Assembly: GCA_025782575.1 (NCBI GenBank)
Contig: JALGYY010000010.1
Span: forward strand, 1-64,000
Direction of reading: 5' to 3'
Origin: a bacterium
GTDB lineage: Bacteria > Orphanbacterota > Orphanbacteria > Orphanbacterales > Orphanbacteraceae
DNA length: 64,000 nt
Both the position numbers and the translations under genes were made by a program. Positions 21,467 to 49,866 of the stretch are shown in pieces. The notes under the pieces are model-generated. The model searched no databases. It was given only the letters and a program-made list of their open reading frames with translations, and was not told the origin of the DNA. The stretch's first letter is position 1. Each line of letters starts with the position of its first letter.

Positions 21467-21590
21467 TTTACCTGCCTGTCGGGCGAATTGCCCCAATACC
21501 CCGATTGCAATATCCTATTTACAATCTGAGTGGAATATTTGCAATCGCCAACAAAAATTGCCAATCTTCGCCCAATGGGGGCGCCAAGAG

Positions 21591-21619
21591 TTGACACGCC
21601 TAACCTGTTTACTGACAAT
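21591..21619 (+). promoter_or_regulatory. Candidate sigma-70 promoter upstream of the ncRNA/ispH
   Basis: TTGACA (21591-21596) and GACAAT (21614-21619) are separated by exactly 17 bases. A transcript from here would run through the sigma-54 promoter and end at the terminator at 21923-21952, unless read-through into ispH occurs. Confidence 0.4.
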
Positions 21620-21655: not shown

Positions 21656-21671
21656 GCCAACCACTGTTGGC
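21656..21671. promoter_or_regulatory. Dyad GCCAAC-N4-GTTGGC, possible activator site
   Basis: Perfect 6-bp arms around a 4-base centre, about 130 bases upstream of the sigma-54 -24 element. That is the usual distance for an enhancer-binding protein site. Half-site copies of GCCAA lie further upstream. It could instead control the NUDIX-MBL gene or simply be part of a folded RNA. Confidence 0.35.
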
Positions 21672-21792: not shown

Positions 21793-21809
21793 TTGGCACG
21801 ACGGTTGCT
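21793..21809 (+). promoter_or_regulatory. Sigma-54 (-24/-12) promoter
   Basis: The site TTGGCACGACGGTTGCT matches the sigma-54 consensus YTGGCACG-N4-TTGCW at every defined position, with exactly ten bases between the GG (21795-21796) and the GC (21807-21808). Transcription should start near 21820. It sits in a non-coding gap in the right direction for the small RNA and terminator that follow. Confidence 0.75.
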
Positions 21810-21819
21810 CTACACAAGG

Positions 21820-21952
21820 CCCGAGGCCGAACGGGAGACCGGCCTTCTGGATTGCCTCGGCACTCAGTCGTCGCCTGCCTCAATGGGGGAGCGTGAGGGG
21901 GCGGCGACCCGCCGAGGATTTTGGAGGAACCTTTGGGTTCCTCCATTTTTTT
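21820..21952 (+). ncRNA. Candidate sigma-54-driven structured small RNA
   Basis: A roughly 133-nt transcript is predicted between the -24/-12 promoter and a strong terminator. Its core is one long interrupted hairpin: 21855-21861 pairs with 21911-21917 (7 bp), 21867-21875 with 21900-21908 (9 bp, one G-U) and 21878-21882 with 21894-21898 (5 bp), closing on an 11-base G-rich loop. A short 5' stem (CCCG/CGGG) and the terminator stem complete it. It does not resemble tmRNA, RNase P RNA or SRP RNA as far as I can see. It could be an independent sRNA or a 5' attenuator of ispH, which starts 75 bases downstream. Prediction by eye only. Confidence 0.55.
21923..21952 (+). terminator. Rho-independent terminator
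   Basis: GGAGGAACC (21923-21931), a 4-base loop and GGTTCCTCC (21936-21944) form a perfect 9-bp stem followed by A and seven Ts. It ends the predicted small RNA and lies 75 bases before the ispH start. Confidence 0.85.
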
Positions 21953-22026: not shown

Positions 22027-23247
22027 TTGTCAGGCCAGATCAATCGCGCACCATCCAAGGGCATCCGGAAGGACATCGGTGCTCTCCTGGATACCGATTT
22101 CAGCTCGAGCCTCATCTCTTTTCTTCGAGCCACGGGATATGAGTACCGTAACGGGAACACTCATATCAAGCTGGCCGCCGAGTTCGGGTTTTGCTACGGC
22201 GTGGACCGCGCCGTCGAGTATGCATTCGCTGCGCGGCACCGCTACCCGGACAGGTCCATCTGGCTGACCGGCGAGATCATCCATAACCCCAGAGTGAACA
22301 GCAGGCTTCGCGAAATGGGCATCCAGTTCCTTCCCGAGACCGGCACTCGGGAAGAGCGATTCCGCTCTCTCTCGAAAGGGGACGTGATTCTCATCCCCGC
22401 GTTCGGGGCCGATGCCGGAGAGATGACCTATTTTCTGAATCAGGGCTACGAGATTATCGACACCACATGCGGTTCCGTCCTGAATGTATGGAAACGGGTC
22501 CGCCACTATGCGAAAGAGAACTTCACTTCTATCGTGCACGGCAAGTTCGATCACGAAGAAACGCGCGCTACCTGCTCGCAGGTGACCGCCGCCAATCCGG
22601 AGAGTCACTTTCTGGTCGTTCTCGACATGGATCAAGCACTCGAACTCGCCCAATTCATCGAGTCGGATGATTTCAGCCGTTTTGGCGAGATCTTTCCTCA
22701 GGGCGCGATGAGCGATGGTCTCGATCCGGTTCGCCATCTCACCCGGGTGGGCCTCGCCAATCAGACCACCATGCTCGAATCGGAGAGCCGGGCGATTCAG
22801 GATGTGATCCGCCGGGCAATGGAAAAGCGGTTCGGCATGGATAACATCGCCGAGCACATCATGGCGTTCGACACGATCTGCAGCGCCACCGAGGACCGCC
22901 AGCGGGCGGTCAAGGCACTCCTCACCGAAGGGGTGGACATGATGATCGTGATCGGCGGATATAACAGCTCCAATACGGGCCACCTGCTGGAGATTGCAGA
23001 CCAAGCCGTGCCCGCCTATCACATCGAGTCGACCGATTGTCTGCTTGATGCAAAACGGATTCTCGCCAAGCCCCTCGGCGAGGAACCGATTGAGATGGTC
23101 GACTGGCTCCCCGAAGACAAGATAACGATTGGGGTTACCGGCGGTGCTTCTACGCCCGACTCCGTAGTGGGCCGGGTGATTGCCAGGCTCTTCGAGCTTC
23201 GCGGCGCCGACCTACCCACCCAAAAAGAAATCGACGCCGCGACTTAG
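22027..23247 (+). CDS. ispH: 4-hydroxy-3-methylbut-2-enyl diphosphate reductase
   Basis: Last enzyme of the MEP isoprenoid pathway, an Fe-S reductase that makes IPP and DMAPP from HMBPP. The three cluster cysteines are visible: Cys56 in 'FGFCYGVDRAVE', Cys148 in 'IDTTCGSVLNVWKRV' and Cys285 in 'FDTICSATEDRQ'. At about 406 aa it is the long form seen in cyanobacteria, plants and some candidate phyla, not the 315-aa E. coli type. I place the start at TTG 22027, behind an AGGGGGG stretch; the frame stays open to 21757 but that part encodes the terminator hairpin and has no ribosome site. The pathway partner ispG lies at 44.7 kb. Confidence 0.9.
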   Translation: MSGQINRAPSKGIRKDIGALLDTDFSSSLISFLRATGYEYRNGNTHIKLAAEFGFCYGVDRAVEYAFAARHRYPDRSIWLTGEIIHNPRVNSRLREMGIQFLPETGTREERFRSLSKGDVILIPAFGADAGEMTYFLNQGYEIIDTTCGSVLNVWKRVRHYAKENFTSIVHGKFDHEETRATCSQVTAANPESHFLVVLDMDQALELAQFIESDDFSRFGEIFPQGAMSDGLDPVRHLTRVGLANQTTMLESESRAIQDVIRRAMEKRFGMDNIAEHIMAFDTICSATEDRQRAVKALLTEGVDMMIVIGGYNSSNTGHLLEIADQAVPAYHIESTDCLLDAKRILAKPLGEEPIEMVDWLPEDKITIGVTGGASTPDSVVGRVIARLFELRGADLPTQKEIDAAT

Positions 23248-49804: not shown

Positions 49805-49820
49805 CTGGCACGACTGTTGC
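49805..49820 (+). promoter_or_regulatory. Sigma-54 (-24/-12) promoter of the DUF6600 gene
   Basis: CTGGCACGACTGTTGC keeps TGGCACG, the ten-base GG-GC spacing and TTGC of the sigma-54 consensus. It nearly repeats the element at 21793 (both TGGCACGAC.GTTGC). Start of transcription would be near 49832, giving a 35-base leader with GGAGG. Confidence 0.7.
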
Positions 49821-49866
49821 GCTAAGAAGCGGGCAGGTCAACGAATCGGAGGGAATGGAGGATCTG

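Follow-up and report, generated by a model that had tools for sequence, protein, structure and literature searches.

Promoter and predicted transcript

The gap upstream of ispH in the window (the whole 64-kb stretch of DNA analysed here) carries a −24/−12 element followed by a series of hairpins. The locus raises the question of whether this gap encodes an independent small RNA (sRNA) or a leader of ispH, and what would switch its transcription. The promoter and the predicted transcript are as follows.

21793..21810, + strand: sigma-54 promoter, −24 (TTGGCAC) and −12 (TTGCTC)
21820..21952, + strand: predicted sRNA transcript of ~133 nt, with +1 from the −12 spacing

An earlier sequence-only reading had described a −24/−12 element with every defined consensus base. 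TTGGCACGACGGTTGCTC (21793-21810) is indeed an exact match to TGGCACN5TTGCW, with the −24/−12 proper at 21794-21809, and is the only one in the window. The 4.88-Mb genome contains eight exact matches, compared with two for the reversed-pattern control, and encodes rpoN (Sigma54_DBD, E = 8e-62, Pfam). TGGCAC-N5-TTGC was identical in all seven genomes of the phylum that we compared, so that the promoter is conserved in relatives, as that reading had demanded. Transcription of the sRNA is very probably sigma-54-dependent. With C21808 as the −12 position, we infer a +1 at 21820.

The surroundings of the seven other exact −24/−12 sites in the genome showed neither dyad-like sequence within 350 bp upstream nor a second copy of the sRNA. 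Several of these sites precede flagellar, pilin-like or exported-protein genes. One (G000:C21:181694, locus L054) lies before a pilin-like gene with a leader of ~130 nt, beside a sigma-54 activator, and another (C13:27030, L051) lies ahead of flagellar rod-like genes; pilin-like and flagellar rod-like genes in this position are as expected for sigma-54. Within the window, a −24/−12 element with one mismatch (TGGCACGACTGTTGCG) occurs at 49806-49821, and its spacer is similar to that of the sRNA promoter.

Conservation in the phylum

The phylum sample consisted of seven genomes (G000 to G006) from one family and five genera. Four of them are named in their NCBI records as 'Candidatus Eisenbacteria' Dive96_bin2.117 and OFTM309 and 'Gemmatimonadetes' DeMMO4_6 and SS_bin_27. 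The sRNA was found once in each of the seven genomes, each time upstream of ispH. A covariance model scored these seven relatives at 124-145 bits and found nothing convincing in the 379 other genomes of the collection (386 in total), where the next matches reached 30 bits at most. The viral contigs gave no match to the sRNA. No Rfam covariance model, Qrr included, matched at its gathering score, and the weak matches had E values of 3.8-8.4; the earlier reading had likewise been unable to match the locus to tmRNA, RNase P RNA, SRP RNA or 6S RNA. No open-licence paper naming both Eisenbacteria and small RNA was found. The conserved sRNA is almost certainly real, and it is a previously undescribed family in a phylum without a cultured model.

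Weak matches to the model in two loci from other phyla (L028 and L029, 25-30 bits) proved to be coding sequence beside a terminator, and three further weak matches (L030-L032, 25-30 bits) were screened for motifs only. Pattern matches across the collection (Sedimenticola, Knoellia, Clostridiales and others) were rejected as chance matches, the structure being absent alongside.

Predicted structure of the RNA

The elements of the predicted transcript are listed below.

21825..21844, + strand: 5′ hairpin P1, GGCCG-AACGGGAGAC-CGGCC, whose loop 1 contains GGGAG; identical in 7/7 genomes, a single exact copy in each
21855-21861/21911-21917, + strand: stacked stem P2 (7 bp)
21867-21875/21900-21908, + strand: stacked stem P3 (9 bp)
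21878-21882/21894-21898, + strand: stacked stem P4 (5 bp)
21883..21893, + strand: loop 2, ATGGGGGAGCG, again with GGGAG; RTGGGGGAGCG fixed in 7/7 genomes except that R is A or G
21922..21952, + strand: intrinsic terminator, stem 21922-21945 followed by T7

P1 (GGCCGAACGGGAGACCGGCC, 20 nt), which starts ~5 nt past the predicted +1 and is absent from the earlier description, is the most conserved part of the RNA. The stacked hairpin of 7, 9 and 5 bp that the reading had drawn was recovered, and the predicted transcript folded with z = −4.24, none of 200 shuffles being equally stable. Its terminator with seven Ts was also confirmed, with 10 pairs by our scan compared with the 9 originally counted. 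Loop 1 (AACGGGAGAC) and loop 2 both present GGGAG. In G002 and G005, loop 2 is partly paired or occluded in the minimum-energy fold.

When the seven sequences were aligned with the given structure, 99.6% of the cells were paired (100% in P2, P3 and P4), and the paired cells fell to 38-56% in the slid-partner controls. Two-sided changes occurred at 9 of the 36 pairs, six of them in the terminator (of 10 pairs) and three in P3 and P4 taken together, which also had one-sided changes at six pairs. The covariation score was reached by none of 500 column shuffles. P1 is invariant and P2 showed one-sided changes only; the case for these two helices is thus made by identical sequence and not by covariation. 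The earlier reading had proposed to look for covariation in the three stacked stems, and it was seen in P3/P4 and not in P2.

Upstream dyads

Three UAS-like dyads related to GNCAAC-N4-GTTGNC, to which the earlier reading made no reference, precede the promoter.

21547..21562, + strand: dyad 1, GCCAACAAAAATTGCC, 9/10 consensus letters; placed alike with respect to dyads 2 and 3 in 7/7 genomes
21580..21595, + strand: dyad 2, GGCGCCAAGAGTTGAC, 8/10; right half GTTGAC/GTTGTC kept
21656..21671, + strand: dyad 3, GCCAACCACTGTTGGC, 10/10; 9-10/10 in 7/7 genomes

The dyads lie 127-260 bp upstream of the −24 element, which is the usual enhancer distance, and dyad 3 is located 127-151 bp before TGGCAC in all seven genomes. 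Dyads 1 and 2 are separated by 33 bp in six genomes and 31 bp in one, and dyads 2 and 3 by 76 bp, or 75 bp in two genomes. Three dyads with conserved spacing, which are putative enhancer sites, were present in 7/7 genomes in the range sought for such sites (80-200 or more bp upstream). Dyad 1 has only 7-9 of the 10 consensus letters among the genomes. Dyad 2 is a half-site in several of them, and its role is ambiguous because it overlaps the −35 of a sigma-70-like TTGACA-N17-GACAAT.

We compared the frequency of the dyads with controls. GNCAACN4GTTGNC occurs at three places in the 4.88-Mb genome, including dyad 3, and its reversed control also at three; the count alone is thus uninformative. 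Dyads with at least 9/10 letters were found in seven genomes compared with 0.07 expected from Markov shuffles, a figure that serves as a guide and not as a probability, the genomes being related. The paired pattern CAACN5TTG-N90-99-CAACN5TTG, searched in the seven whole genomes, occurred only at the sRNA promoters (G000, G001 and G006) and at one activator operon (G000 and G001), and the control for this pattern gave a single match, in G006. As judged from the sequences, the discriminating signal is the paired dyad pattern, rather than the counts of single dyads. The dyads may resemble the NtrX-like CAA-N-TTG, a likeness that the literature searched did not help to assess. Nitrogen or GlnB control, which the earlier reading had suggested as a test, found no support, as the dyads point to a TPR-type activator and form no obvious NtrC site.

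The TPR-AAA+-Fis activator operon

The operon that shares the dyad array encodes the following activator.

G000:C2:867999-871100: sigma-54 activator of 1034 aa with TPRs, AAA+ (GSFTGA) and a Fis-type HTH (HTH_8)

By its look, the stretch between the TPRs and the AAA+ domain is GAF-like, GAF being outside Pfam's displayed list. The activator orthologue occurs once in each of the seven genomes, with 61-69% identity (71% over the G005 fragment). The first product of the operon is a 107-aa protein that contains GGGDPDNPVP; judged by eye from its hydrophobic N-terminus only, it is apparently secreted. The GGGDPDNPVP coding pattern was present exactly once in each of the seven genomes; the 379 others gave a single match, in an unrelated coding sequence.

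We consider it probable that this activator controls the sRNA. The alternative is that the sRNA is sigma-54-driven via another of the ~27 enhancer-binding proteins and that the TPR operon is merely another target. At the operon, only G000 and G001 have clear dyads; those of G003 are partial, and in G002, G004, G005 and G006, where the sRNA keeps its dyads, they are degenerate or lacking. The operon promoter itself looks sigma-70-type (TTGACA-N17/18-TAAAAT type). Another regulator could therefore bind both places. Against this, the upstream regions of five large activators were checked in G000 and the dyad array was found at the TPR-AAA+-Fis operon only. In addition, the recognition helix SRWGLHKKL is invariant in the orthologues of this activator across genera. 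Control by another enhancer-binding protein is thus a rather unlikely alternative, though the strongest of those considered here.

On the 5′ side of the activator operon (L106/L107), one dyad overlaps the sigma-70-like −35 of a divergent nucleoside phosphorylase-like gene. This arrangement suggests that the protein which binds the dyads could repress the phosphorylase-like gene as well; it is also possible that this −35 is the cause of the TTGAC match there.

Proposed circuit and mode of action

The reading that we favour, and hold to be fairly probable as a whole, is that of an independent sigma-54 sRNA of ~133 nt with a dedicated, dyad-bound TPR activator as its switch and base pairing through its GGGAG loops as its mode of action. 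The sRNA would start at a sigma-54 promoter and stop at a terminator, both of its own. A dedicated enhancer-binding protein on the three upstream dyads would switch this transcription; the 1034-aa TPR-AAA+-Fis activator, with whose operon the array is associated, is the best candidate, and would bind the dyads. The signal input could, speculatively, be the small secreted GGGDPDNPVP protein or a peptide processed from it. The sRNA itself would act in trans, its two exposed GGGAG loops pairing with target RNAs.

That the sRNA acts through base pairing and not through protein binding is a view to which we incline. As a protein-titrating RNA, it would instead bind a regulator such as CsrA with its paired GGGAG loops. 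CsrA-family proteins are encoded, with two matches over the cut-off (G000:C13:35492 and C13:364602), and GGA is present in the two hairpin loops. However, neither loop has ANGGA, the usual core of CsrA sites: they are CGGGA and GGGGA, and there are two such sites only. Csr/Rsm RNAs carry several CsrA sites. Titration of a protein is thus unlikely here.

We tested the loops against the leaders of the activator operon and of ispH, and against the activator start together with the intercistronic region, and found no convincing target of the sRNA in these regions. The best pairing was that of loop 2 with GCUCCCCUA, which in G000 precedes the activator start: it was equalled by 0 of 100 shuffles, but 1.7% of random windows were as good. 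For loop 2 and the gap before the activator start in general, random windows were as good in 1.7% to 29% of cases. GUCUCCCC-type (CUCCC-type) tracts precede the activator start in G003, G004 and G006, and the corresponding gap of G001 has no GCUCCCCUA/CUCCC-type site. The loop 2/GCUCCCCUA pairing is therefore only a lead, because several regions were tried with two loops and G001 is without the site.

Relation to ispH

The gene downstream of the sRNA is the following.

22027..23247, + strand: ispH (LytB); Pfam LYTB (PF02401), E = 6e-68; adjoins the sRNA in 7/7 genomes

Its start is the TTG at 22027, 75 nt beyond the T-run, as the earlier reading had placed it. Away from ispH, the sRNA is flanked by a divergent gene; four genomes have a NUDIX/metallo-beta-lactamase fusion here, the other three another gene. 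Since ispH follows in all seven genomes while the other flank changes, the sRNA travels with ispH.

This constant position directly upstream is what would be expected of a 5′ leader or attenuator, in which sigma-54 transcription reaches ispH once the terminator is overcome. Such an element would need a pairing exclusive with the terminator, and loop 2 could pair with the terminator 3′ arm over 7-9 nt in five of the seven genomes; in G004 and G006 this pairing is 6 nt, close to that of the shuffles (means 6.1-7.0). The terminator arms vary between genera and loop 2 does not, the distance from the sRNA to ispH varies, and G002 and G005 hold several more terminator-like hairpins in between. An antiterminator conserved across the seven genomes and exclusive with the terminator was sought and not found. 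The sRNA is favoured over an ispH attenuator because the terminator arms change freely and a conserved antiterminator pairing is absent. We therefore regard attenuation as quite unlikely; ispH is probably a gene separate from the sRNA, and co-location without regulatory coupling is the more likely relation. Of the sRNA and the ispH attenuator that had been offered side by side at the outset, the former is thus preferred and the latter is poorly supported.

In G002 and G005, the gap between the terminator and ispH contains 3-4 tandem terminator-like repeats (GGGAGCC..GGCTCCCTTTT.TATTGGTA).

The spacing between the two conserved motifs varies modulo 3, and the invariant motif falls in three different frames relative to ispH, with stops in four of the seven genomes. 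The region is thus non-coding, as had been proposed, because the frame is lost between the two motifs and toward ispH. That the locus is no functional RNA, but either a product of chance (a promoter-like match beside a hairpin made stable by GC-rich sequence) or the coding of a longer ispH N-terminus, is very improbable and, as far as comparative sequence data can tell, already contradicted: the region is open in the ispH frame in G000, G002 and G003, but the frame is not preserved among relatives, the 20-nt and 11-nt motifs and the promoter are invariant in 7/7 genomes, and the stems covary. The overall interpretation from which we started was supported in part, in its sigma-54 promoter, backed by rpoN, its structure and its terminator, and not in its nitrogen/GlnB and attenuator parts.

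Comparison with known systems

In layout, the closest known kinds of RNA appear to be Pxr and Qrr. The Pxr sRNA of myxobacteria has ~108 nt and three predicted stem-loops, of which two are conserved and the 3′ one is variable; its predicted sigma-54 promoter has an enhancer-binding region ahead of it, and its partner is the sigma-54 response regulator nla19/pxrR (PMC5684412, PMC5568312). Pxr and Qrr are short, are driven by sigma-54, and have enhancer sites together with a dedicated activator; the present RNA shares this layout by prediction, a likeness that implies no relatedness to either. The pxr gene, however, adjoins the gene of its regulator, a two-component response regulator, whereas the gene of the candidate regulator here lies in another part of the genome, and its product has TPRs but lacks a receiver domain. 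The Qrr sRNAs of Vibrionaceae (LuxO/SypG) are sigma-54-dependent, have at least two UAS dyads upstream and an enhancer-binding activator, and belong to a cell-signalling circuit (PMC10162802). The likeness to our sigma-54-type sRNA with several UAS-like dyads upstream is one of layout only. The Qrr UAS is TTGCAWWWTGCAA, whereas the dyads here follow GNCAAC-N4-GTTGNC, and the present RNA, known from sequence alone, differs in lacking an Rfam match, in the type of activator and in the phylum.

The activator operon resembles RRNPP peptide quorum sensing of Firmicutes, whose receptors have 250-500 aa (PMC10075063), in that a gene for a small, apparently secreted protein lies beside a TPR-regulator gene. 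This likeness is limited to gene layout and TPRs: the receptor here has 1034 aa, outside that size range, with an AAA+ sigma-54 domain and a Fis-type HTH, and the phylum is not Firmicutes. A peptide circuit outside Firmicutes, in which the GGGDPDNPVP protein would be sensed by the TPR sigma-54 activator and a dedicated sRNA would be the result (RRNPP-like sensing with Qrr-like output), is a tentative and rather doubtful extension of our reading.

The finding adds an sRNA family with a conserved promoter, enhancer array and structure, and, with it, a named candidate for its regulator. Should the switch consist of the activator and the secreted small protein, TPR peptide sensing would be linked to sigma-54 sRNA control, a combination of which we found no description in the literature searched.

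The same genome (G000) contains at least four similar small-protein/TPR-activator pairs. Five large TPR-type sigma-54 activators of this genome (C2, L100:5997-9462; C13, L118; C39, L119; C2, L120 and L121) are each immediately preceded by a gene whose product has ~90-110 aa and a hydrophobic N-terminus. The four other than the TPR-AAA+-Fis activator have no dyads, and three of their small proteins have a DPD core, so that the core is found in four of the five (GGGDPDNPVP, GDTDPDDFPIV, EEDVDPDGFEQV and EESDPDVPEGI). These pairs possibly represent a family of peptide/receptor pairs.
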